Below, piece by piece: positions 23,675 to 55,387 of a DNA stretch of 64,000 nt. Below the pieces are notes generated by a model. That model ran no database searches. It saw only the letters and a program-made list of their open reading frames with translations, and had not been told where the DNA came from. Location of the stretch: positions 1 through 64,000 of the forward strand of contig SUUI01000001.1 in the NCBI GenBank assembly GCA_015062605.1, in the 5' to 3' direction. Origin of the DNA: Eggerthellaceae bacterium. GTDB taxonomy: Bacteria > Actinomycetota > Coriobacteriia > Coriobacteriales > Eggerthellaceae. How positions within the stretch are numbered: position 1 is the first letter of the stretch; each line of letters starts with the position of its first letter. The position numbers were made by a program, and so were the translations under genes.

Positions 23675-26311
23675 TTACGCAATCTCTTCGCGGGTTGCCA
23701 GGTCATAACGCTTGCCGGTCTCAAGATCGACCAGGTTGTTCGCTTCCGCATCGTAAGCATAACCCGTGTAAGCGTCGAAGTAGGTGCCGGTCTCGGGATC
23801 AAGTGCCCACTGCGTATTCGGATCATAGATATGACCGTTTACGAAGCCAGCGCCCTTCTCGGCATCCCACTGCACCAGACCAGGAAGCTCATACGGAGCC
23901 TCGGCAAGACCCGGGAAGCACTCAACGCCACCGACGACAACGGATTCCTGCTTCTTCTCATTCGGATAGAGAGCAGCGCGTGCTTGCTCCGGAGTGGAAA
24001 CGAAGCTCGCGGGATCGGTGCCGATTGCGCCTTCTTCGGTGTCGGGGCTCAGGGTTCCGAGTGCATTCAGGCCGTCAACCTTGAAGATTCTGCAGGCGAC
24101 GTTCTTGAACGGAGCACCGAAGCCGATGCGACCGATTGCGCGGTGCGGGATAAGGCTGTTGATGTTGGACTTCCAAACGCCGTACAGGTTCGGAGCTTCG
24201 CCGTCCTGCTCGGGGAACCACCAACCATGCTGGCAGTGGATAACTTGCGGCGGAACGATCTCGGTAACCTGAGCCTTCTCGATGGCCTTGCTCAGCGGGT
24301 TCTCGATGCAGACCCAATCGCCATCTTCGATGCCATACTTCTTCGCGGTCTCGGGATTGATCTGGACGAGCGGCCACGGCATGATAGCGCGGAGGCTCGG
24401 GATCTGACGATGCTCGCTGTGGAAGGACGTGGTCTCGCGGCCGCCAGTCGTCATGATCAGCGGATAGTTCTCCATCAGATCGGGACGTGCATACGGCGTG
24501 AGCTTGTTCTCCTCATAGTACGGCAGCGGATCCTCGCCCCAGTCCTCGTACAGGCTCGAGCAGAGCTCGACGAGACCAGTCGGGGTGTTGAAGCCAACGT
24601 CGCCATCAGGACGGAGCAGGCCCTTCTCATACTTACGATACTGGAACGGCATATGGAACCAGCCCTCTTCGCGGAGGTCTTCGAAGGTCTTCTCAACGCC
24701 GCCATTGTGCAGCTGCTCGGTGAAGAAGTCAGAAACGTTGTCCCACGGCCATGCCTTCGGATTCAGGCGCTTGCCAACCAAGAAGTCGATCTCGAGGTCG
24801 GACTTGGTCTCGCCAACTTCGACGCACTTGTTCATGGCCATGACCATATGGGTGTTGCGGCCAAAGTGCGGAAGGACCATGCCGTCATGCTCGGCTGCAG
24901 AGGCAACCGGGAGGAACAGGTCGCACATACCCATGGCCGTCGGGGTCATGAAGGTATCCTGGCAAACGTTGAATTCCATCTTCATCAAGGCGTTGTACCA
25001 ACGCTTCGGCTGAGCATTGGTGGTGTTGGCGATACCGTTGGTGGCATAGAACCAAGCCATCTTCAGCGGATAAGGCTCGCCAGTCTCGAGGGTGTCGAGG
25101 ATGCAGTCGGGATGAGCGATCAGGTGAGCGGCCTTGAAGCCCTTGTACTGCTCGTTATCGGTGATCTGCTTGTCGAGCATGCCCTCAGGAAGCTCCTTGG
25201 AGCACTCATAGCGCCACTTGCCCATGAAGGAAGCCGGAACAGCCAGAGTCACGCCACCCGGAACATCGAGGTCGCCCAGCAGAGCGGCGATGTTCAGGAA
25301 GCAGTGGCCAGCCTGCGTGCCATTGGCGTTGGTGTCGATGGCAAGACCCCACATGAACGAGGACGGATGATTGGCTGCCAGCGTGCGGGCTGCCTTCTGA
25401 ATGAGCTCTGCGGGAACCCAGGTGATCTCCTCGACCTTGTCGAGCGGATACTGGTCAGCGCGCTCCTTGAGCTCTTCAAGACCATAGCACCAATTCTCGA
25501 CGAAGTCATGATCGTAGAGGTCCTCATTGATGATGACGTTGATCATGCCGAGGCCGAGAGCGGCGTCGGTGCCGGGACGCAGCTGCAGATGAATCTCTGC
25601 ATGAGCGGCGCACCAAGTGACGCGTGGGTCGATGACGATGAACTTGGAGCCGAGCTTGTACAGGTCGATGATCGCATGACCGAAGAAGCCGTCAGGATTG
25701 CTGAACAGAGGATCCTTGCCCCAGAGGACGATGTACTTCGGAAGCTCCCACTCGGGGTTGTCGAAGCGATCCGGGAAGTACGCCGCATAGTCGAGCTCAG
25801 GATAGCCAGCGCCCAAAATGAAGTCGGCGACGGAGCAGCGGGGACCGTAGCAGGAGTCACCGGACATCGGGAAGCAGCTGTTCGGAGTGCCCAGCGCTGC
25901 ATAGGCGAGCGGGGTCTTGTACAGCGTAGCCTCACGGCCGGTACCCTGGAAGGCAACGATGGCCTCAGCGCCATAGTTCTCCTTGATGTAGTTGACGCGC
26001 TCTTCGATGATATCGAGAGCCTCGTCCCAAGTGATGCGCTCCCACTTATCCTTACCACGATCCTTAGGATCGCGCTTCAAAGGATAGATAACGCGGCGAT
26101 CGTTGTAGATATACTCGGGAAGCGTCAGGCAACGAACGCACAGACGACCATTGGTGATAGGATGCTCGGGATCACCCTCAACGTCAACGACCTTACCGTC
26201 CTTGACTGTGAGATACATACCGCATCCTACCGGATGGTCTCCTGGAGGCGACCACACACAGGTGCGCATCTTAAATGTGCCGTCACCACAGTCGATAATT
26301 CTCTCCGACAT
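23675..26311 (-). CDS. Cytoplasmic molybdopterin-dependent oxidoreductase, large subunit
   Basis: 878 residues from an ATG with GGAG close upstream. The frame is open further upstream but crosses the promoter. There is no Tat signal. Cysteines C18, C30, C58 and C61 (TCVW, VGCGM, GRLCVRCL) replace the usual C-x2-C-x3-C-x27-C. C154 in GDSCYGPRC is the likely Mo ligand. The following DMSO-reductase-family domains are intact, with a C-terminal molydopterin-binding fold around GRETTSFHSEHRQIPSL. The large-plus-tiny ferredoxin architecture resembles acetylene hydratase/transhydroxylase-like enzymes and the catechol dehydroxylases described in gut Coriobacteria (inference). The last 50 residues form an octapeptide repeat. 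Confidence 0.85.
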   Translation of the reverse strand: MSERIIDCGDGTFKMRTCVWSPPGDHPVGCGMYLTVKDGKVVDVEGDPEHPITNGRLCVRCLTLPEYIYNDRRVIYPLKRDPKDRGKDKWERITWDEALDIIEERVNYIKENYGAEAIVAFQGTGREATLYKTPLAYAALGTPNSCFPMSGDSCYGPRCSVADFILGAGYPELDYAAYFPDRFDNPEWELPKYIVLWGKDPLFSNPDGFFGHAIIDLYKLGSKFIVIDPRVTWCAAHAEIHLQLRPGTDAALGLGMINVIINEDLYDHDFVENWCYGLEELKERADQYPLDKVEEITWVPAELIQKAARTLAANHPSSFMWGLAIDTNANGTQAGHCFLNIAALLGDLDVPGGVTLAVPASFMGKWRYECSKELPEGMLDKQITDNEQYKGFKAAHLIAHPDCILDTLETGEPYPLKMAWFYATNGIANTTNAQPKRWYNALMKMEFNVCQDTFMTPTAMGMCDLFLPVASAAEHDGMVLPHFGRNTHMVMAMNKCVEVGETKSDLEIDFLVGKRLNPKAWPWDNVSDFFTEQLHNGGVEKTFEDLREEGWFHMPFQYRKYEKGLLRPDGDVGFNTPTGLVELCSSLYEDWGEDPLPYYEENKLTPYARPDLMENYPLIMTTGGRETTSFHSEHRQIPSLRAIMPWPLVQINPETAKKYGIEDGDWVCIENPLSKAIEKAQVTEIVPPQVIHCQHGWWFPEQDGEAPNLYGVWKSNINSLIPHRAIGRIGFGAPFKNVACRIFKVDGLNALGTLSPDTEEGAIGTDPASFVSTPEQARAALYPNEKKQESVVVGGVECFPGLAEAPYELPGLVQWDAEKGAGFVNGHIYDPNTQWALDPETGTYFDAYTGYAYDAEANNLVDLETGKRYDLATREEIA
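23684..23827 (-). repeat. Octapeptide repeat at the C-terminus of the molybdopterin enzyme
   Basis: Six consecutive eight-residue units: YDPNTQWA, LDPETGTY, FDAYTGYA, YDAEANNL, VDLETGKR, YDLATREE. The consensus is [Tyr/Phe/Leu/Val]-Asp-x-x-[Thr/Ala]-[Gly/x]. The pattern recalls the aromatic OCRE octamer repeat of eukaryotic RNA-binding proteins. DNA-level identity between units is low, so it is an old repeat. Confidence 0.75.
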
Positions 26312-26338
26312 AAACTCTCCTCTCATAAAAGTTCGCTT

Positions 26339-26380
26339 ACTATCGTGAATGCCCGAAAGCATTTCAACCAAGCCCTTGGT
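26339..26380 (-). promoter_or_regulatory. Promoter and operator-like palindrome of the molybdopterin operon
   Basis: On the minus strand TTGAAA (26362-26367), a 17-base spacer and GATAGT (26339-26344) form a sigma-70-type promoter about 28 bases before the ATG. Abutting the -35 on its upstream side is a perfect inverted repeat ACCAAG-CC-CTTGGT (26367-26380), well placed for an activator or repressor. Confidence 0.55.
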
Positions 26381-28500: not shown

Positions 28501-28971
28501 TCACTCCTCAGGAGTTGCATCGCACACGTGTTGGGCAAATCGCTTGATCGTAGCGATGATCGAACCGATTCCTTGCCTGCGCGATGCGCTGAACGTGGTC
28601 ATGAGTTCGGCTTTTTCGGGAAAATAGATGTCCGCTTCGGCAACCTCGCGCAAAGGCCTACCATCAAGCACTTCGATGAGGAGTTCGAGCACGCCCCGCA
28701 CGATAAGCGTATCGGAATCGGCTTTGACCGAAAGGGCGCCTGCGCGGTTTTCCATCACAAGCCAGGCGCGCGATTGGCAGTCTTTCACAAGATTCTCATC
28801 AACCTTGGATGCCTCATCCAAAGCCGGTAATGCGGTCGCGAACTCGATAAGATACTCGTACTGAGATAGCGGATCGCCTATGGAAAGGAAATCCTCGACG
28901 ATATCGTCTTGCTGTTGATTGATCGTGCGCTTTTCAGACGCACCTGATGTTCCATTCTCCACGATTCTCAT
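28501..28971 (-). CDS. sufE: SufE-family sulfur acceptor
   Basis: 156 residues from the ATG at 28971. The ribosome site is poor there, and a GTG at 29025 is the alternative. The conserved VKDCQSRAWLV carries the persulfide-accepting Cys. The region DSDTLIVRGVLELLIEVLDGR and the C-terminal block LMTTFSASRRQGIGSI are typical of SufE/YgdK. It accepts sulfur from SufS and stimulates it. It sits between ACP-like protein B and sufS on one strand, which ties sulfur transfer to that gene row by position only. Confidence 0.88.
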   Translation of the reverse strand: MRIVENGTSGASEKRTINQQQDDIVEDFLSIGDPLSQYEYLIEFATALPALDEASKVDENLVKDCQSRAWLVMENRAGALSVKADSDTLIVRGVLELLIEVLDGRPLREVAEADIYFPEKAELMTTFSASRRQGIGSIIATIKRFAQHVCDATPEE

Positions 28972-29070
28972 CCCCCCGATGAAACTCCGTGTTCGTTGGT
29001 CTTCTGCGTGTACGCTGCACCGCACTATCCGAATGCGAGCCGATGTGCTGGCCTTAGCGTCACACTCCTG

Positions 29071-29505
29071 CTATGCCGCCGGCCGATGCTCGTTCGGGCG
29101 ATTCGCTACCGGAAGATGCGGCCACATAAGCCTGATAACATCTTCCAGCGTTTCAATCTGCATGAGCTCTTGCAGCGAGAGCGAAACCGAAAGCGACTTT
29201 TGAAGTTTCACCAAAAGCAACGTGCGCTTCACATCGCTCGATGTCGCTCCCTCGCAGTTTTCCCCTGCCTCGTAGTCGGCAACCAAATCCTTCGAGATCT
29301 TAAGCGCTTTGGAGATGCTGATTTGCGCGAGTTCGCTCAGGTTGTCGGTCTGCTCGAAATCGGACTGCCCGAGCGCGAACTTCAACATGACGAACGTACG
29401 CACATGCTCGCGGAACGATTCGTACGTGAGCGAGGCATCGTTGAGAATGGCATCTATCTGAGCCTGTGATGCCCTTTGCTTGGCAAGTATGCTTTCCTTC
29501 GACAC
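29071..29505 (-). CDS. ACP-like small protein B (paralogue of the protein at 32988)
   Basis: 144 residues from a GTG with GAGGAGG six bases upstream. Predicted all-helical. Residues 82-130 have the hydrophobic spacing of helices II-IV of an acyl carrier protein (KRTLLLVKLQKSLSVSLS, then ELMQIETLEDVIRLM). The site where ACP has Asp-Ser-Leu reads C84-E-G-A-T-S-S90, so the phosphopantetheine serine is not in its normal place. The 80-residue N-terminal helical extension matches its paralogue (VR-x2-V, L-x2-L-x-Q-x-S-I). The function is unknown. It is 104 bases downstream of FucI-like B. Confidence 0.75.
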   Translation of the reverse strand: MSKESILAKQRASQAQIDAILNDASLTYESFREHVRTFVMLKFALGQSDFEQTDNLSELAQISISKALKISKDLVADYEAGENCEGATSSDVKRTLLLVKLQKSLSVSLSLQELMQIETLEDVIRLMWPHLPVANRPNEHRPAA

Positions 29506-29550
29506 GATGCGCCTCCTCAGCACATAAAACTATTGACCTGCTTTTCTTTC

Positions 29551-29586
29551 GGCTGGCTGCGCCGCTTGCGGGCAACGCAGCCAGCC
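29551..29586 (-). other. Intercistronic hairpin after FucI-like B
   Basis: An 11-base perfect stem GGCTGGCTGCG / CGCAGCCAGCC with a 14-base loop. On the minus strand it is followed by GAAAGAAAAG, not a U-tract, so it more likely protects the upstream mRNA or sets expression ratios than terminates. Confidence 0.5.
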
Positions 29587-29609
29587 GCATTAACGATGCT
29601 CGGTCGAGA

Positions 29610-31157
29610 TTAGTCAACGAGCATCGGCTCTACACCGAGCGTCTCGCATAGAGCGACAAGCTCCTTCGTGTAATCGCCATAGACCAACGTGATGTGAATG
29701 CCGACCTCGCATTGTGCGCGATGGGCCGCAAGCGAGTCATTCAGACGATAGAACACCAGCTGCGTGCAGTTGTCGCGATCCTGACCGCTCGAACCGACAA
29801 TCGTGCCCTTGCCGATGAACATCTTGGCGCCATCGGGCGAGAACTTGCACATCGTGATGGTCTCACCTTTGTCACGCGCGAAGTCATAGCGGAAGGTTGC
29901 GCCAAACTTCTGGTCATACGCAAACGGAGCCAGGCTGTATGGAGCATGCTCGTTCGGATCAGGCAAGCAGCGATGGGCAACGGAGTGCTGCGTCATCCAC
30001 AGATGCTCGCGCAGATCGGGGTCCTTCGCCAGCTCGGCAAGGGATTCCTTCGTTGCGCCGAAGACCTGCTTGAATGCGCCATCGACCATGGGAATGGGGC
30101 AGGTGTTGCCCATGTAGGGGCTCATGCCGGACACGGCAATGAGCGCCTGCTCTGATAGGGCTGCCGGCAGATCGTACTCGCATGCAGACGGAGTACCGCA
30201 CTCGGCATTGAGCGCATGGGTGAGGCACATCGTGAACTTATTCTGATTGATGCGCCTGGTGGAGCAGGCATCGGGACACGGCATGGAGAACGCATTGCAG
30301 TCGAAGCGGTCCATGAACTTGCGGGTCAGAACATATGCGATGACGGACGGCATCATGAGCTCGCGCTCGATGCGCACTTCCTCGGCACCGCCGATCAGCT
30401 CATCGCACAGCTCCTCAGCCTTCTTGAGGTCTTCGGCATCGACGTTCGGGGTCTTACGGCCAGGCGTGGTGTAATTGCCCTCCGGCGTTGCTTCCTTCAT
30501 GCAGTCGATGAACTCATGCAAGTTGACGAAATGGAAAGTCGTACCAAAGCGTTCGGTAATCTGGTCAAGGCTCGAGAAGGAGTCGGGACGGCTCACACCC
30601 GTGCGGCCGTCAAAGCGCGTGACGCACAGATACTTCGTACGTGCAAGGATCTTCTTGGCACGCAGCGCGGTCATGCGCAGCGTGAAATCCTCCCAGCGAT
30701 ACTCGGAATAGCATTTAACGTCCATATGGCGTGCGGCAATGCCAGCAGGAACGTCAGGAACGTTGAACTGGCCGGATGCGGGGCAATAGCACATGGTCTT
30801 CTTGAAGCGCATTGCAAACTTCAGACCAAGGTCCTGCACGCCGGCGCCAGCCATCGGGACAACGACATCTGCCTTGTTGACGGCATCTTCCATCGCACGC
30901 CATTGCTCTTCGGGCTCATCCCAGTCATCAGTGCGGTGGAACAATACGGGCTCCATTACATTGACGCCTTCGGGAACGTGAGCCTTGATGTCCTCGACGA
31001 AGTTCTTCGCACGCTTGGCAAAAGCAACCTTGTCGTAACCGGGCTCCAAAGCCTCGCCACTACCGAAACGGCAGGGACCCTCATAGTAGTACAGATGCTC
31101 GCAGAACAGCTCAAGTGGAAGAACGTTAAGCTTGATATCTTTTGCTTGCTCGATCAT
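29610..31157 (-). CDS. L-fucose/arabinose isomerase-like protein B
   Basis: 515 residues, with AAAGGTG before the ATG. The fold resembles COG2407 (FucI-related). Paired with protein A it shares the N-terminal EGPCRFGSG and a cysteine-rich core (C287, C294, C298, C311, C320, C326) around NAFSMPCPDACSTRRINQ and ECGTPSACEYD. It also shares YMGNT, GATFRYDF, TMCKF and the terminal LVYGDY. E327, D329 and H488 stand where FucI family members have metal ligands (inferred). Aldose-ketose isomerisation is the family chemistry, but the substrate and even the chemistry are unknown here. Confidence 0.78.
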   Translation of the reverse strand: MIEQAKDIKLNVLPLELFCEHLYYYEGPCRFGSGEALEPGYDKVAFAKRAKNFVEDIKAHVPEGVNVMEPVLFHRTDDWDEPEEQWRAMEDAVNKADVVVPMAGAGVQDLGLKFAMRFKKTMCYCPASGQFNVPDVPAGIAARHMDVKCYSEYRWEDFTLRMTALRAKKILARTKYLCVTRFDGRTGVSRPDSFSSLDQITERFGTTFHFVNLHEFIDCMKEATPEGNYTTPGRKTPNVDAEDLKKAEELCDELIGGAEEVRIERELMMPSVIAYVLTRKFMDRFDCNAFSMPCPDACSTRRINQNKFTMCLTHALNAECGTPSACEYDLPAALSEQALIAVSGMSPYMGNTCPIPMVDGAFKQVFGATKESLAELAKDPDLREHLWMTQHSVAHRCLPDPNEHAPYSLAPFAYDQKFGATFRYDFARDKGETITMCKFSPDGAKMFIGKGTIVGSSGQDRDNCTQLVFYRLNDSLAAHRAQCEVGIHITLVYGDYTKELVALCETLGVEPMLVD

Positions 31158-31180
31158 GGTAATTCACCTTTCTTCATGCG

Positions 31181-31315
31181 CCCTTGCCGCAGGGGGGTGG
31201 TTGGAGTGCGGCAAGGGCTTTTCCAAATGTCCAGCGCATGTGAAGATGCGCTTAGAACCGATACGACAAGCGCTCAAGGGCTTTTTGCCGTGCGGGATCC
31301 CTACCCCACCCGCAC
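31181..31315 (-). other. Two intercistronic hairpins between FucI-like A and B
   Basis: The 187-base gap holds an 11-base stem CCCTTGCCGCA / TGCGGCAAGGG (31181-31191, 31207-31217) and a seven-base stem GTGCGGG / CCCGCAC (31290-31296, 31309-31315). Neither has a U-tract on the minus strand. The first has CTTTT behind it only on the plus strand. They probably shape the polycistronic mRNA. Confidence 0.5.
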
Positions 31316-31344
31316 CATGCCAACCCCCAGCGCGGCGAGGCGCA

Positions 31345-32907
31345 TTATGCGCACTCGATAACCTCGAGACCCATCAGCTTGCCGAAGTCGACGACCATGT
31401 CGTACACATCGCCATAAACCAGTGGGATGTGATTGCCGACCTGGAGCGCGCCTTCAAAGAACTTCTTGCCATCGGAAACCTTGTAGAACACGCCTTCGGT
31501 GCAGTTCTCGGTAGTGTAGCCAGCGCCGGCAACAATCTCGCCGCGTGCGACAAAGAGCTTGGAGCACGTCGGATCGAAACGGCACATGGTAACCGTCTGA
31601 CCGATGTCCTGGTTGAAGTCATAGCGGATGGTAGCGCCCCAACGACCGCCCATAGCGAACGGACGCAGTGCATAGACGGACTCTTCGGCATCGAAGCCCT
31701 TGAGCTTGCGATTCGGCGTAGCATGGAAGGTGTAGCCGATGCCACCGACTTCACCCAAATTCTCCGTGATGCGCTCGAAGCCGTCCTTGTCCTTCTTGAG
31801 CAGAGGCGACGTGACAACCTTGTCCTCGGCATTCATCTTGGCAAGCGAGGTGTTGCCCATGTACGGAGCGCTGAACGACAGATTCGACAGCAGAATCATG
31901 GCAGCCAGAGCCGAGATGTCGTACTCGCAAGCGGAACAGATGCCGCATTCGTTGTTGAGCGAATGGTTGAGGCACAGCGTGAATTGCTCTTGGTTCAGAC
32001 GACGGGTCGCGCACATATCCGGACACGGTGCCGTGAAAGCGTTGCAATCGAGCTTGGCCATGAGCTTCTGAGCGAGATAATTTGCCTTCACCGAATTGAA
32101 GACGGCCTGCTCGTCGATGTCGACGATTTCGGCATCATCCATGAGCTTCTTGGCAATCGCAGTGATCTCCTTCGCATCCTCTTCGTTGATGTTGTCCATC
32201 TTGCGACCAGGAAGCGTCGGATTGCTGCTCGGGTCGACCATCTGCGTCTGGTCGAGGAACTCATGCATGTTGTAGTAACGGAATTCGATTCCGAGACGCT
32301 TCGTCACCTCGTTATGATCGAGGAAGGAATCGCATGCGCTGACAGAGATCGTCGAATTCGCACGCGGAAGTGCCAAGATGCGCGTATTCTTCATGACCTT
32401 GCGGGCACGAAGCACCTTGAGCGTACGCGGAGCATCCGCATAGGTGTACCAGCAGTATGCCTCGTAACCGCGGGCACGCAGTGCTGACATGAAGATGGCA
32501 TCGTTGCTGCCGAAGTGCAAAAGCGCCATCGGCTTGTTGTAGCGCTTCTGGAACTCCAGGAGGAAGTCGACGCCGAAGGGGAAGATGTTCACCAAATACA
32601 AATCGACGTCATCGACGTCCTTCGCCATCTCCGCGAGCATCTCGTCCTTAACCGGGAAGGATTCATCGCGCATGATGAAAACAGGATCGAGCACATTCAC
32701 GTAATCGACGGTGCCCAGATTCTCCTTGACGCCTTCGACGAATGCATGATGCAGCTCGTTGGCATGCATCAGGTCGTATTCCTTTGTCAGCTGGTCGCCT
32801 GTACCGAAACGACATGGACCCTCGAAAACGTACTCGTGATATACGCAAACCGTCACCGGACGGACGTTCAGCTTGATGTCCTTGCCTTTCTTGATGTTGA
32901 AATCCAT
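31345..32907 (-). CDS. L-fucose/arabinose isomerase-like protein A
   Basis: 520 residues from an ATG with AGGAG six bases upstream. The 34 upstream codons are rejected. It is a paralogue of protein B over its whole length: KDIKLNV and EGPCRFGTG at the N-terminus, and C288, C295, C299, C312, C321, C324 and C327 in the core (CNAF, PCPDMCATRR, ECGICSACEYD). PYMGNT follows at about 348, then GATIRYDF, TMCRF, ENCT and GNHIPLVYGD. E328, D330 and H493 are candidate metal ligands. Seven core cysteines, six of them shared with B, are not a feature of ordinary sugar isomerases. It lies 80 bases after ACP-like A. Confidence 0.78.
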   Translation of the reverse strand: MDFNIKKGKDIKLNVRPVTVCVYHEYVFEGPCRFGTGDQLTKEYDLMHANELHHAFVEGVKENLGTVDYVNVLDPVFIMRDESFPVKDEMLAEMAKDVDDVDLYLVNIFPFGVDFLLEFQKRYNKPMALLHFGSNDAIFMSALRARGYEAYCWYTYADAPRTLKVLRARKVMKNTRILALPRANSTISVSACDSFLDHNEVTKRLGIEFRYYNMHEFLDQTQMVDPSSNPTLPGRKMDNINEEDAKEITAIAKKLMDDAEIVDIDEQAVFNSVKANYLAQKLMAKLDCNAFTAPCPDMCATRRLNQEQFTLCLNHSLNNECGICSACEYDISALAAMILLSNLSFSAPYMGNTSLAKMNAEDKVVTSPLLKKDKDGFERITENLGEVGGIGYTFHATPNRKLKGFDAEESVYALRPFAMGGRWGATIRYDFNQDIGQTVTMCRFDPTCSKLFVARGEIVAGAGYTTENCTEGVFYKVSDGKKFFEGALQVGNHIPLVYGDVYDMVVDFGKLMGLEVIECA

Positions 32908-32987
32908 TGTTGCTCCTCTCCTTGCCCGTAGATTCCCATCTACACAACGCACCACGTCATGCAGCGCGCTTAATACCCACGTGCTTT

Positions 32988-33377
32988 TTAGTCGAGCAGC
33001 ACGCCGCACACCCGATCGATAAGCGCATCGAGCGTCGTGATCTCGACCGACTCCTCAGGAGAAATACCCAGATGGAGTTCGCGGTTCATTGCAATCAGAA
33101 GAAGGATTTTCTTGGTCATCGATGAAGACGCCCCATCGCAGCGCACGCTCAGATCGGCAACCAGCACATCGGCGGGATCCATCCCCGTCGTCCGCGCGAT
33201 GCTCATCTGGCCAAGCGCGTTGAAGTAGTTGAGATCAAGGTCTTCGTCTTCGAGGGAGAAACGGATCTTTACGTACTCGCGCACCAGACGCTTGACGTCT
33301 CCGCGCGTTGAAGCGCATTTAAGCTGATCCATCACGATGCCAGCTTGCTCCTCAACTGCGGAAATCTCCCGTTTCAT
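32988..33377 (-). CDS. ACP-like small protein A
   Basis: 129 residues, with AGGAG nine bases before the ATG. The N-terminal helical part (VREYVKIRFSL, ALGQMSIAR) aligns with protein B. The C-terminal part (about 75-129) has ACP-like helices (KKILLLIAMNRELHLGIS, then EITTLDALIDRV). C80-D-G-A-S-S-S86 replaces the Asp-Ser-Leu attachment site. The shared motif is C-[DE]-G-A-[ST]-S-S. It is the first gene after the divergent promoter region, directly upstream of FucI-like A. It may be an ACP-fold partner, chaperone or carrier using a thiol, and I cannot choose between these. Confidence 0.75.
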   Translation of the reverse strand: MKREISAVEEQAGIVMDQLKCASTRGDVKRLVREYVKIRFSLEDEDLDLNYFNALGQMSIARTTGMDPADVLVADLSVRCDGASSSMTKKILLLIAMNRELHLGISPEESVEITTLDALIDRVCGVLLD

Positions 33378-33487
33378 TCCCCTCTTCTCCTGTGTCCCTT
33401 CACCGCTTCATGGAGAATTGTAGAGAAGGAAGAGATGGGTGATTAATAGGCATTATGCTTAACTTTATTTGATAAAATGTGCTTATT

Positions 33488-33515
33488 GCATATTGAATTG
33501 GCATATTGCCGGCAA
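33488..33515. promoter_or_regulatory. Candidate regulator site between the PucR-type gene and the FucI/ACP-like row
   Basis: In the 216-base AT-rich divergent gap there is a direct repeat GCATATTG (33488-33495, 33501-33508; 13 bases start to start). It runs into a 10-base palindrome TTGCCGGCAA (33506-33515). The position suits a site for the divergent regulator controlling both directions. No -10/-35 pair is clear enough to mark. Confidence 0.35.
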
Positions 33516-33593
33516 AAGCAGCGGAAGACGTTTTACCTGTTCAACTACTAGTTTGATAGGTTAAACCCCTTTTCTGGATTTAGGAGAGCGACG

Positions 33594-35180
33594 ATGGTAA
33601 CGTCAGGAATGCTACTCGATTGGATACAACCTCTTTCCACCGACATCATCAATCGGCACTTCGAGCGGAAACCCATAAAATGGATCGTACTGCTCCCTCC
33701 CCGTACAAGCGAATGGGAGGCGATTCTCGAATCGAACACCGTTTTTGCAAGCGATGATCCCGAACTGCTGCAATCTCTCAATCCAACGATTGCAGCAATG
33801 CTCGTCTGCAAAGATGCGGCAGCCCTTCCCTCCCGTTTTACTCGCGAGAACACGCTTATCGTGCAGACGGAGCTTTCGAAAGAGGCGTTCGCAGCAGTGA
33901 TGCAAAAGCGCATCCGAACCATCGAATCGTGGGAGCACAACCTTGATCGGGTTTCTGCGGACAGGGGTAGCTATCAGCTGATGCTCGATCTTTCGGCAGG
34001 CATCTTCGGCAATCTCATCACGATGACGGATTCCGCGTATCGCCTTATCGGCTACACGACCAGCCTGACGACCGATGATCCAGCCACACTTGAGCTCATT
34101 CGAAACGGTTTCCACGGAGAGCACGCTGTTGCGATCTTCCGAAAGAACAACATGTTCTCGAAATGGTCGGCGCAGACGAGAACGCGTTACACGGCAAAGG
34201 GGTTCACGAAACATCCCATCATGAACTATGTCTTCACGGTCAATGGCGCCTATTTCATTCAGATGGTCATGACCTGCGACACGGTACCCTATTCGCAAGG
34301 ATTGCTTGATACGTTCAACATCTTGGTTGCACACATCAAAGCGCATATCCGCCGCAGCCAGACATTCGAAAACGCTCGCTACTCGAAAGGTGCGCAATTC
34401 CTTGCCGACCTTATCGGAGGCAAGCGCGTACCTGCACGTGTCATCTCGCAGCAGATGCGCAATCTCGGCATGTCCGGCAAGGAGATCACGCGCATTTACG
34501 CCATCCAGAATGCAGGCGACAATACGGAAAACCTGGAATACGTTGCACACCAAATCTCGGCGAAGATGCCCGGCTGCTTTGCGATTCCACAAGAAAATTA
34601 CGTTTATCTGCTCGCATGCGCGCGAGACAATCAAGATGGCACATGGCATGCAATCGAGCAAACACTCATTAATTCGCTCGATTTCTCGTTCGTGAACATC
34701 GCCATCTCAGGCACGTTCACCAATCTTCAAGATATTCATTGGGGCGTCCAACAAACAGAAATCGCATTCAAATTCGGCAAGGGACGTCCGTATCTTGCGC
34801 ATGACCGGCTTGATCGAGACGATCCGTTCTTCAGGTTCGAGAACAGCCTGTTCGACTATCTTCTTTTCAGCAATGAGCGCGATATACGTTTCTTGCAATT
34901 CTGTCTGGATGCAAGCGTCTTGGCACGCATCGACAAAGACCGCCAAAAGCACCCGAGCGACACTGAAATGCTGCGTAGTTATCTGAAGCATGAATGCAAC
35001 GTGTCAGCAACGGCGGAAGCGCTCGGCGTTCATCGGAACACGGTACTCAACAGAATCTCGTCAATCGCCGAAAGAGAGCGAGTCGACTTCGATGACCCGA
35101 AAGTTCGCATCAATCTGACAACGCTGTTCCACCTATCCGATTTGCTTGGCGTGCACGAGGAAACCGAGGATGGCATCTGA
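33594..35180 (+). CDS. PucR/CdaR-type transcriptional regulator
   Basis: 528 residues, with AGGAG seven bases before the ATG. The C-terminal PucR helix-turn-helix (about 460-493) reads LKHECNVSATAEALGVHRNT, with VLNRISSIAE following. The GGDEF-like/CdaR region precedes it. The N-terminal 200 residues resemble a sensory domain of unknown ligand. PucR relatives respond to purine catabolites, and CdaR to sugar acids. It is transcribed away from the ACP-like/FucI-like row and is the natural candidate to control it. A terminator follows. Confidence 0.87.
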   Translation: MVTSGMLLDWIQPLSTDIINRHFERKPIKWIVLLPPRTSEWEAILESNTVFASDDPELLQSLNPTIAAMLVCKDAAALPSRFTRENTLIVQTELSKEAFAAVMQKRIRTIESWEHNLDRVSADRGSYQLMLDLSAGIFGNLITMTDSAYRLIGYTTSLTTDDPATLELIRNGFHGEHAVAIFRKNNMFSKWSAQTRTRYTAKGFTKHPIMNYVFTVNGAYFIQMVMTCDTVPYSQGLLDTFNILVAHIKAHIRRSQTFENARYSKGAQFLADLIGGKRVPARVISQQMRNLGMSGKEITRIYAIQNAGDNTENLEYVAHQISAKMPGCFAIPQENYVYLLACARDNQDGTWHAIEQTLINSLDFSFVNIAISGTFTNLQDIHWGVQQTEIAFKFGKGRPYLAHDRLDRDDPFFRFENSLFDYLLFSNERDIRFLQFCLDASVLARIDKDRQKHPSDTEMLRSYLKHECNVSATAEALGVHRNTVLNRISSIAERERVDFDDPKVRINLTTLFHLSDLLGVHEETEDGI

Positions 35181-50825: not shown

Positions 50826-53800
50826 CTACTTGCCTGCTTCGCGCGCAACTTTGTCTGCAAGATTCGCCTTCGCGACGCTGATCATCAGCTTGATGCGATT
50901 GAGCTGGTTCACCTCGGAAGCACCTGGATCGTAATCGACTGCGACGATATTGCTCTCAGGGAAGCGCCGACGCAATTCCTTGATGACCGACTTCCCCACT
51001 ACGTGATTCGGCAGGCACGCGAACGGCTGCGTGCATACGATATTGGGCGCACCCGTCTTGATGAGCTCGATCATCTCGGCAGTCAACAGCCAGCCCTCGC
51101 CCATCGAATTGCATAAGCTCAGGATCTCCTCTGCGTATTCGGCAAGTTCGAAAATGCTTGCTGGCGGATTGAAACGCGTTGATGCTTTGAGCTGATCGAG
51201 GATCGGCTTGCGCAACCGGTCGATGACGTCAAGCGCGATCTTGGCGCCCACCGCGCCCTTCTTGCTGCGTCCCAATGGATCGCGCTGGAAGATGCGTCCC
51301 GCGATGCCGAACAGGAAGAACTCGACAAGCCCAGGAACCACCGCTTCGCACCCCTCGTTTTCGATGAGGTCGACAACTTGATTGTTTGCTGTGGGATGGA
51401 ACTTCACAAGAATCTCTCCGACGACGCCGACGCGCGGTTTGGTACCGAAGTTCTGCAGCGGCAACGTATCGAAATCATTCACGATATCCTTCACGGTGCG
51501 CTTGTACTCGCCCCATTTCACACCGCGCTTCAACTGCTCCCCGCACACACTCATGTAATGATCGAACAGGCGTGTCGCGCTGCCCGGCTCGAGTTCGTAT
51601 GGGCGGGTGCGATACAGGCACATCATGAGCAAGTCGCCATAACCGAATGCGTATACCGCCTGATAGAGCATCTTCGGCGTGATAGAGAAGCCAGGATTGT
51701 CCTCGTCGACCGTGCTCTTGCCTTGCAGAGCGATGGAAATGACGGGGATATGGCCGAGTCCTGCCGCTTTGAGGCCCTTGCGGATTAGCGCGATATAGTT
51801 CGTCGCACGGCAACCGCCACCGGTCTGCGTGATAAGCACCGCGAGTTTATCGGTGTCGTAACGACCGCTCGTGACGGCTTCCATGATCTGGCCCGTCGTC
51901 AGAATACTCGGGTAGCAGATATCGTTGTTCACGTACTTCAAGCCCGCATCTACCGCGCCATGATCGACACTCGGCAAAAGCTCGACGTTGTAGCCAAAAC
52001 GATGGAACACGGGAACAAGCAACTCAAAGTGATACGGTGCCATCTGCGGTGCGAGGATGGTGTACCCTTCCTTCTTCATCTGTTCGGTGTATGTTGCTCG
52101 ATAGAACGCACTCGAGGCATCATCGCGTTGCTTCAGATAGCTTCGTAATTCGTCGGATGCCTTACCTGTGAACTCATCCGGCGCATATTCGGCAGGCGCA
52201 TCGTCCAGATTGAATTCGCACGCTGCCGCAGGGCAACCTTGCGCAGTCAGGCGCGCCTCGACAGCTTGGTCGTTTTCGATGTCCTGCTGGTTCTTGAGCG
52301 CAGCAAGCAGGCTGCGCACGCGAATGCGTGCGGCACCGAGATTCGAGACCTCATCGATCTTGAGCACCGTATAGATCTTGCCCGCTGCTTCGAGAATCTC
52401 CTGCACTTGGTCGGTCGTGATGGCGTCGAGACCGCATCCGAAGCTGTTGAGCTGAATGAGATCCAAATCCTTACGGGTACTTACGAACTTAGCCGATGCA
52501 TAGAGACGCGTATGGAACATCCACTGGTCGACCGCACGCAGCGGGCGATCGATGATACCCAGATGGGCGACCGAATCCTCTGTGAGAACCGCCAATCCGA
52601 AGCTCGTCAAAAGCTCGGGGATGGCGTGATTGATCTCGGGGTCGTTATGATACGGACGGCCTGCCAACACGATGCCATGCGTGCCCGTTGCTTCCATCCA
52701 TTTGATGGTTTCTACGCCTTTCGCACGCATATCGTGCTTGAAACGCTCATCTTCCGCCCACGCAGCATCAACCGCATCGGCAACTTCCTGCTTGGTCGGA
52801 GCCTTAGCGCCGCCTTTCGTCATCAAATCGGGATGTGCCTGCACAAGCTCTACGTAGAGGCGCTCCTTGAGCAACTCCTTCTTATCGTAGGGAAGCCATG
52901 GGTCGAGGAATTGGACATCGCTCGTCTGCAGATCGTCTACGTTGAGGCGCAGCGCCTCGGGATAGCTTGCCACGATGGGGCAGTTGTAATGGTTGCCCGC
53001 ACTCGCGTCCTCCTGGCGCTCCCATTTCGCGCAGGGCATCCAAATGAAATCGGGATGTTTGGCTAGCAGATTCATGATGTGGCCGTGGCTCAGCTTCGCG
53101 GGATAGCATACGCTCTCTGACGGCATGCTCTCGATGCCAGCCTTGTACGTGTCCTTGTTGCTTGCGTCGGAAAGCACCACACGCCAACCCAGCTTCGTGA
53201 AGAATGTGAACCAGAACGGGTAATTCTCATACATGTTGAGCGCGCGAGGCATGCCGACCGTGCCGCGAATGGCTTCTTCGGCAGACAACGGCTCGTAGCC
53301 AAATAGGCGTTTCGATTTGTAATCGAACAGATTCGGTACCTTCGATGCATCGGTGCGGTTGCCCGAACCCTTCTCGCAACGATTACCGGTGATGAATCGG
53401 CGATGCTTGCCTGTCCTTTCATCCACACCGAAATCATTGATCGTCAATAGGCAGCTATTCGAGCAGCCTTTGCAACGCGTCGTGCGCTGCGTGGGAGCAA
53501 GCGCCTCGAGAGCGGCAAGCCCCAAAATGGATGAGCAAGGAGCGCTCTGCCCGCCTAAGGCAGCCCTATCGCGCGCAAGCAATGCGGCACCGTATGCACC
53601 CATGTTGCCAGCGATGTCGGGGCGAACCGCGTTGACTTCGGAAAGCTGCTCGAAGGCTCGCAGTACTGCGTCATTGAGGAAAGTGCCGCCTTGAACGATG
53701 ACCTTTTCGCCTACATCGCGTGGGTCGCGGATCTTGATGACCTTGAACAGGGCGTTCTTGATGACCGAGATGGCAAGGCCAGCGGCAATATCGCCAACCG

Positions 53801-54278
53801 TCGCGCCCTCTTTCTGTGCCTGCTTCACGCGGCTGTTCATAAATACGGTGCAGCGGCTTCCCAAATCAACGGGATGCTCCGCCGCTATGGCCGTCTGCGC
53901 GAACTCGGAAACATCGAGTCCTAAACCACTTGCGAAGCTTTCGATGAACGAGCCGCAGCCTGACGAGCACGCCTCGTTGAGCATGATATGCTCGATAACG
54001 CCATCCTTCACACGCAGGCACTTCATATCTTGGCCGCCGATATCGAGGATGAATTCCACGCCAGGAAGCATTTCCTGCGCACCTCGCAGATGCGCAACCG
54101 TCTCGATCTCGCCGGAGTCGACACGCAAAGCCTCGAGCAAAAGCCCTTCACCGTAGCCTGTAACCGTCGCATGCCCGATGGTTTCCAGCGCGCGACCATC
54201 CTCATCGGTGGGAAGTGCACTATACAATGCCGAAAGCGCCATCTTGGCGCATCCGAGAACATCACCTTTATTGCTCAT
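50826..54278 (-). CDS. 2-hydroxyacyl-CoA dehydratase/activase-type protein, C-terminal part of a split gene
   Basis: 1150 residues from an ATG that overlaps the upstream stop in an ATGA. It opens in the middle of a BadF/HgdC-type ATPase domain: [14 protein letters not shown] and [11 protein letters not shown] with a cluster Cys. Then come a cysteine block (CKGCSNSC) and a long DUF2229/HgdAB-like region with several Cys-containing segments. In intact relatives this is continuous with the preceding ATPase halves. See the adjoining entry and the finding. The reaction is unknown; some relatives activate dehydratases or reduce difficult substrates. Confidence 0.8.
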
Positions 54279-55387
54279 GTAATCGACCAGAGAATAGATC
54301 CATCCTGACCGATTAGAACAGCTTTGAAAGTGGTGGAACCTGCGTCGATGCCCAAATAAGCCGTGCCGCGATAACTTGCCAAATCGCCACGTGGGACGCA
54401 TTCGCTTGCATGACGCTGCTTGAACTCCTCGTACTCTGCCGCATCGGCGAACAGCGGGGGCAGGCGCACGACTTCAGACCCCTGCATGTCACCCAAGCCA
54501 CGGAGGCGCTCAAGCACATCGTTAAGGCTCTCGGGATGCACGTGTTCGCTCGTGATGCCCGCAATGGCACAGCCGCGCGCCACGAACAGATGAGCATCTT
54601 CGGGAACGATGCGATGCTCTTCATCTAACTCCAAAGTTTCATAGAAGCGCTCACGGAGCTGATCGAGATACTGGAGTGGACCGCCTAAGAACGCCACATA
54701 TCCCCTAATGGGACGACCGCATGCAAGGCCAGATATCGTCTGCGTAACCACGGATTGGAAAATGGATGCAGCGATATCCTCCTTCTTCGCACCCTCGTTG
54801 AGCAGCGGTTGCACATCGGTTTTCGCAAACACACCGCAACGGCTCGCGATGGGGTAGATCGTGGTATGGCTCTTGGCAAGTTCATTCAGGCCAGTTGCAT
54901 CGGTATTGAGCAACGTGGCCATCTGGTCGATAAACGCACCTGTACCACCTGCGCATGTTCCGTTCATGCGTTGCTCGATGCCGTGGTCGAAGTAGATGAT
55001 CTTAGCATCCTCGCCACCAAGCTCGATGGCGACGTCGGTCTTCGGGATGAAGGTTTCAACGGCGGTTTTGCTGGCAATGACTTCCTGCACGAAATCGAGA
55101 TTGAGCCATTGTGCCAGAAGCAGACCGCCGGAGCCCGTGATGGCTATGGTCATAATCTGGTCGCCGTACTGTTCCGCAGCACCCTGCAGCACTTCGACGA
55201 TCGTTGCGCGCACATCCGCATGATGACGCTGGTACACCGAGTAAACGACCTCATGCGCATCGTTCAGAATGGCGAGCTTGACCGTGGTCGAGCCTACGTC
55301 GATACCGATATGCAAATCGGTTTGAGAAGGCGAAGGAACCGCCTTCAAGGTATCCGTGGAAGAAGGCGTTTTCATATCCTGTGGCAT
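54275..55387 (-). CDS. CoA-dehydratase-activase-type ATPase, N-terminal part of the split gene
   Basis: 370 residues. The first ASKHA domain is complete: [27 protein letters not shown], and [12 protein letters not shown] with the bridging Cys, then [11 protein letters not shown] second domain begins at [20 protein letters not shown] and stops after SILWSIT. One missing base at about 54282-54290 restores reading into the next frame (WS then [11 protein letters not shown]). The ATG start has AAAGGGA about 11 bases upstream, and an ATG at 55375 is an alternative. Confidence 0.8.

Follow-up and report, generated by a model that had tools for sequence, protein, structure and literature searches.

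Why should a protein with the fold of a sugar isomerase be encoded together with a small protein resembling an acyl carrier protein (ACP) and with the sulfur-mobilising proteins SufE and SufS? This question is raised by a gene row in the 64,000-nucleotide stretch studied here (the window: positions 1 to 64,000, forward strand, of contig SUUI01000001.1, assembly GCA_015062605.1, from an Eggerthellaceae bacterium). SufS mobilises sulfur from cysteine as a persulfide, and SufE accepts that persulfide. On the comparisons presented below, a dedicated relay running from SufS through SufE and a cysteine of the ACP-like protein to the FucI-fold enzyme has, in our estimate, slightly the better of even chances. 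The four-part set occurs across several phyla, chiefly in gut and rumen anaerobes. Neither of its core families has a Pfam match above the cut-off, and a literature search of open-licence papers turned up no published account of the set.

The gene row of the window

An earlier note on this DNA had described the row as ACP-A, FucI-A, FucI-B, ACP-B, SufE and SufS with a divergent PucR-type regulator, and every gene named there is present. Six of the seven lie inside the range given at the time, 28501-35180, and SufS falls just beyond it. The genes are as follows.

33377-32988, minus strand: ACP-like A, 129 residues; Cys80 and Lys89 invariant across the family
32907-31345, minus strand: FucI-like A, 520 residues; arabinose/fucose-isomerase fold
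31157-29610, minus strand: FucI-like B, 515 residues; an old subfamily distinct from that of A
29523-29071, minus strand: ACP-like B, 150 residues; GTG start, exact start uncertain
29025-28501, minus strand: SufE (PF02657, 1.8e-32); acceptor Cys83 present
28494-27238, minus strand: SufS-type cysteine desulfurase (TIGR01979 above cut-off); pyridoxal phosphate (PLP) Lys234 and Cys372 present
33594-35180, plus strand: PucR-type regulator (PF13556, HTH_30, C-terminal, 7e-16), divergent from the row

The two FucI-like proteins share 37% identity and the two ACP-like proteins 31%, and none of these proteins of the window reaches any Pfam cut-off. In the regulator, the Pfam scan recovered the C-terminal HTH_30 domain, and the N-terminal PucR ligand domain was not matched by Pfam even at an E-value of 1. 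The genome of the window measures 1.7 Mb and the SufE of the row is its sole SufE. A near-identical match to the window (99%) comes from an Eggerthellaceae metagenome-assembled genome (MAG; locus L014).

Conservation of the neighbourhood

The neighbourhood was surveyed in 76 non-redundant loci, 46 of them with at least 4 kb of flank on each side, neighbours being scored within 6 kb; the choice of loci went by FucI peptides alone and so did not predetermine how often each neighbour is counted. Beside the FucI-like gene of the 46 well-flanked loci stood an ACP-like gene in 44, SufE in 32 and SufS in 32, with all three present in 27 and none of them in 2, and the gene order varies among loci. This arrangement is well above chance expectation and recurs well beyond this genome. 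The PucR-type regulator, also counted in the set by the earlier note, is common (22/46) but replaceable by LysR (15/46) or, in a divergent clade, by AraC types.

Relatives of FucI-A were found in 5 of 200 Coriobacteriia and 11 of 299 Lachnospiraceae genomes, and the FucI-like family extends over Actinomycetota, Bacillota and some other phyla. Oscillospiraceae, Erysipelotrichaceae and Spirochaetes are among the groups represented, with Gordonibacter, Raoultibacter, Ellagibacter, Eubacterium ramulus and E. oxidoreducens among the carriers. A plasmid search with FucI-A gave no match. The module is self-contained in that, regulators aside, no enzyme gene recurs throughout the loci, and the transporters in or beside the operons differ (by-eye families: DASS at L064 and L067, TRAP at L069 and L162, MFS at L036, GPH near five Eggerthellaceae modules), which suggests that imported compounds of differing kinds are each used in a single step.

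SufE and SufS belong to the set

Co-occurrence with SufE is the strongest single test of the association. SufE is present in 10 of the 299 Lachnospiraceae genomes, all 10 being among the 11 FucI-like carriers (hypergeometric p 8e-18, with no correction for relatedness), and four of the five SufE genomes among the 200 Coriobacteriia are FucI-like carriers (hypergeometric 4e-7). The only Lachnospiraceae carrier of this sample without SufE is G304; contig positions match it to the genome of L048, where an ACP-SufS fusion is present. Three of the SufE-bearing Lachnospiraceae carry a divergent FucI-like clade with a full set of FucI, SufE, SufS and ACP genes, and in two of these an AraC-type regulator is encoded next to the set. 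A relay as proposed here, if true, would account for the very presence of SufE in Lachnospiraceae.

The ACP-SufS fusion was observed in eight loci (L043, L044, L048, L049, L050, L051, L054, L057), ACP-SufE in L015 and L077, and SufS-SufE in L074. These fusions, together with a neighbourhood kept in varied gene orders, indicate that the four genes form one functional set. In family and catalytic residues the pair is the same as in known SufS-SufE mobilisation: SufS scores 492.6 bits against TIGR01979 (cut-off 475.1) and the family has PLP Lys234 in 42/42 and Cys372 in 39/39 aligned sequences, and SufE scores 112 bits against PF02657 (cut-off 27) with the acceptor Cys83 in 51/51. It differs in being tied to FucI-like and ACP-like genes, sometimes by fusion to an ACP-like domain, and in having no SufBCD nearby, the single SUFBD core of the genome lying on another contig; the row is therefore not a SUF iron-sulfur (Fe-S) operon. 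Sulfur involvement, for which gene order had been the sole argument, is now also supported at the sequence level by SufE co-occurrence, fusions and intact catalytic residues.

It could be argued that the suf genes are there for Fe-S assembly and that their adjacency to a sugar isomerase is incidental, as both SufS and SufE belong to the standard Fe-S machinery and SufBD is encoded elsewhere in this genome. This explanation is already contradicted by the conservation of the set across phyla in varied orders, by the fusions, by the restriction of SufE to carriers in the Lachnospiraceae sample and by a row without SufBCD, and it keeps hardly any probability. A SufS-SufE pair 58-62% identical to that of the window was also seen at L168 (7715-9403), between molybdopterin enzymes and with no FucI-like or ACP-like neighbours.

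An ACP fold with an invariant cysteine

The AlphaFold2 model of ACP-like A, made with 65 relatives, has a predicted local distance difference test (pLDDT) score of 92 and a predicted template modelling (TM) score of 0.86, and its best structure matches, ranked by probability and target-normalised TM and not by E-value, are ACPs, with ACPs from NFS1 complexes among them. The protein thus resembles an ACP in fold and by weak profile similarity, but differs from it by a longer N-terminus, by an invariant cysteine and lysine, and by the absence of a conserved phosphopantetheine serine. In the alignment of 89 members, the cysteine and the lysine are each found in 89/89, and the column of the phosphopantetheine site holds Ser in 76, Thr in 10 and a few others, with Gly, Asp and Ala in single members, several of them full-length; members of the divergent clade keep the cysteine and have Leu at the site. 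Cys80 of ACP-A lies in the loop just ahead of the prosthetic-group position, and position 85 opens the following helix. Consequently, the constrained residue is the cysteine and not the serine, and the acyl-thioester carriage that the earlier note implied for these proteins is not supported.

A true phosphopantetheine carrier, presenting the FucI-like enzyme with a bound acyl group or substrate, would agree with the fold, with the place of position 85 and with its frequent serine. Against it stand the replacement of that serine beside a cysteine that never varies, a match to Pfam PP-binding in only 3 of 65 members (best E 0.002) and the lack of any recurring adenylation or ligase gene, and we consider it decidedly improbable.

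A sugar-isomerase fold with an altered site

The model of FucI-like A (pLDDT 94) has the arabinose/fucose-isomerase fold, with Foldseek matches to AraA (E 3e-18, TM about 0.65-0.70) and FucI (5e-13). A profile comparison (hhalign, 99%) relates the family to a set similar to the sulfoquinovose isomerase SftI. The family nevertheless remains far under the SftI cut-off (NF048012, threshold 700 bits): 67 of 68 FucI-like proteins match the profile, with a best E of 5.7e-11, and the FucI-A of the window scores 20.9 bits.

Site residues were located with a joint alignment of 68 FucI-like and 16 SftI-like sequences and with hhalign to AraA and FucI, the roles of the Escherichia coli residues in the metal/catalytic site being taken from general knowledge of these enzymes. 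E328, H395 and H493 align with E306, H350 and H450 of AraA (E337 and H528 of FucI) and are kept in 66, 67 and 67 of 68 proteins, so that three of the four metal-site positions are retained. The second carboxylate (D361 of FucI) is absent, its matched position being N352 in 67/68 FucI-like proteins, in contrast to Asp or Glu in all 16 SftI-like relatives. The family is further set apart from AraA, FucI and SftI by an extra N-terminal H-x-Y-x-x-EGPCR motif and by C32, C288, C299 and C469, which are invariant where aligned (67-68 of 68, plus 3/3 divergent members) and not general in SftI-like relatives (C288 occurs in 5/16). From Asn352 in place of Asp/Glu and the invariant family-specific cysteines, we infer that the FucI-like enzyme no longer performs plain aldose-ketose isomerisation. 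One FucI-like copy (L010, 7197-8723, minus strand) has E328 changed to K and H493 to M and, both residues being lost, may be a non-catalytic paralogue. D297, initially placed as a metal ligand, was dropped since E328 and N352 align with E337 and D361 of FucI, and an Fe-S cluster, considered for the many invariant cysteines, was weakened as a candidate because three of them are common to the SftI-like relatives.

Pairing of FucI-like and ACP-like proteins, and their ancestry

For 76 FucI-ACP units from 65 loci the tree distances of the two partners correlate at 0.36, a value reached in 0/500 shuffles when partners were re-paired within tandem loci. The pairing rule apparently swapped both units of L047, and such a swap lowers and does not raise the correlation. 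These sequences indicate co-evolution of every FucI-like protein with the ACP-like protein encoded beside it. Copy numbers (FucI:ACP:SufE) are 6:6:3 in Raoultibacter, 3:3:2 in Ellagibacter and 1:1:1 in E. oxidoreducens, G. pamelaeae and A. ruminis. The earlier proposal of a multi-protein system in which the small protein is the dedicated partner of the FucI-like protein thus gains support from gene adjacency and from the shuffles.

The same data bear on the possibility that the ACP-like domain only stabilises the desulfurase, as ACP does for human NFS1 through ISD11, and carries no sulfur, contact with SufE/SufS being what gives the FucI-like protein its Fe-S or sulfur. The ACP-SufS and ACP-SufE fusions and the NFS1-complex ACPs among the fold matches are in line with it, but ACP-like copies track FucI-like copies and not SufE, the trees pair ACP-like proteins with FucI, and the invariant cysteine would be left without a role, making this possibility quite unlikely.

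In the FucI tree, FucI-A groups with other Eggerthellaceae and FucI-B is nested within a clade of Oscillospiraceae (100/98 for four rows). A further, different FucI-like subfamily occupies the second slot in Raoultibacter L016 and in L017. The row had been called duplicated; A and B instead come from old separate clades and not from a recent duplication. We read this as the swapping of FucI-ACP cassettes next to a SufE-SufS pair that serves them in common, a process that probably included transfer between phyla. On this reading the gene set, which is compact, has been exchanged repeatedly among some gut bacteria.

The proposed sulfur relay

In the relay, SufS would take sulfur from cysteine and SufE would accept it as a persulfide, the catalytic residues of both being intact here. 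The sulfur would then pass to the invariant cysteine of the ACP-fold protein (C80 in A), and this protein, once loaded, would hand it to the FucI-like enzyme paired with it, where the sulfur may mature the metal/cysteine centre, by analogy with the dedicated chaperones that sulfurate molybdenum enzymes. Maturation, the end point that we favour, agrees with one ACP-like partner for each FucI-like enzyme and with SufS/SufE that are fewer and shared; we hold it tentatively, well short of an even chance. The substrates, selected by the FucI-like part, are probably sugar-like or organic-acid compounds taken up from outside.

Alternatively, the relay could feed the substrate stoichiometrically, the FucI-fold enzyme binding a hydroxy-carbonyl compound and making a C-S bond to yield a thio-sugar or thio-acid, comparable to ThiG with the ThiS thiocarboxylate. 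The sugar-isomerase fold, the sulfur chain with its fusions and intact SufS/SufE residues, and the transporter genes of some operons would suit such a thiolation. Yet the loci show no other recurrent enzyme to make use of a thio product, lone FucI-like genes have no linked sulfur source, and for catabolism there would be little point in putting sulfur onto a nutrient that has been taken up, so that we regard this end point as unlikely, if with some probability left to it.

Several observations weigh against a relay that ends in maturation of a partner enzyme. Linked genes that are co-inherited give correlated trees without any contact of their products, and the loci are MAG-derived and akin to one another and consequently not independent samples. 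E. ramulus, with 3:1:2 copies, is an exception to one-to-one pairing. At L020, L021, L022 and L053 the FucI-like gene is alone, with no ACP-like gene anywhere in those four genomes and, in three of the four, no SufE either, and the enzyme is therefore able to exist without the relay. The site-proximal C295, C312 and C327 are also present in SftI-like relatives, for which we know of no sulfur relay. With these points weighed, the favoured explanation as a whole stands, for us, in even balance.

Among known systems, mitochondrial NFS1-ISD11-ACP comes close in joining an ACP-fold protein with a cysteine desulfurase; the set described here differs from it by direct fusion without ISD11, by an enzyme partner of its own and by having the Cys, and not the Ser, invariant. 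ThiS-ThiG-IscS and the FdhD/XdhC-type sulfuration of molybdenum enzymes would be alike in combining desulfurase, carrier or chaperone and target enzyme; their folds are unrelated, and the row has no members of those families. If the relay is true, the ACP fold would join the known protein sulfur carriers and a sugar isomerase would have been turned to sulfur chemistry. It is plausible, at a little less than even chances, that the set is a new kind of sulfur-dependent enzyme system: a sugar-isomerase fold with a cysteine-lined metal site, an ACP-fold persulfide carrier working through an invariant cysteine and not through the phosphopantetheine serine, and cassettes of enzyme plus carrier that can be interchanged and so extend the range of substrates open to gut anaerobes.

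Candidate links set aside and further observations

Three other links were considered. A selenium link was set aside; a selD-like gene (by eye) stands alongside the module at one Ellagibacter locus. Molybdenum enzymes were not counted as part of the set; 13 loci have DMSO-reductase-type genes close by, and all 13 come from Eggerthellaceae or near kin, which are rich in such genes. Phloroglucinol ring cleavage had been prompted by E. ramulus and E. oxidoreducens but was rejected, the known hydrolase belonging to the 'cyclase' family (PMC10470551).

Downstream of SufS, the window encodes a DMSO-reductase-family molybdopterin enzyme (23675-26371, minus strand) with no NCBIfam equivalog match at cut-off, and a molybdopterin enzyme near the module at L013 is 57% identical to it. 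Farther away lies a BcrAD/BadFG-type CoA-enzyme activase with DUF2229 (50826-54401, minus strand, 1191 residues). In E. oxidoreducens (L073, 1-8000) the module adjoins O-acetylhomoserine-sulfhydrylase-like and cysteine-synthase-like genes and a LysR regulator, as assigned by eye. The divergent FucI-SufE-SufS-ACP sets of Lachnospiraceae are those of L162, L163 and L164, with TRAP transporter genes at L162 and sugar ABC and GH105-like genes further away at L164 (families by eye).

Hairpins are found on both sides of FucI-B:

29550-29587, minus strand: strong hairpin in the FucI-B/ACP-B gap; 12-nucleotide perfect inverted repeat, stem extended by G-U pairs, z -5.6
31180-31218, minus strand: hairpin in the FucI-A/FucI-B gap; 12-nucleotide perfect inverted repeat

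L014, L015, L016 and L017 were examined as well. Strong hairpins of differing sequence occur at the second FucI/ACP junction of L015 and L016, and it may be the position of the hairpin, rather than its sequence, that is conserved there.

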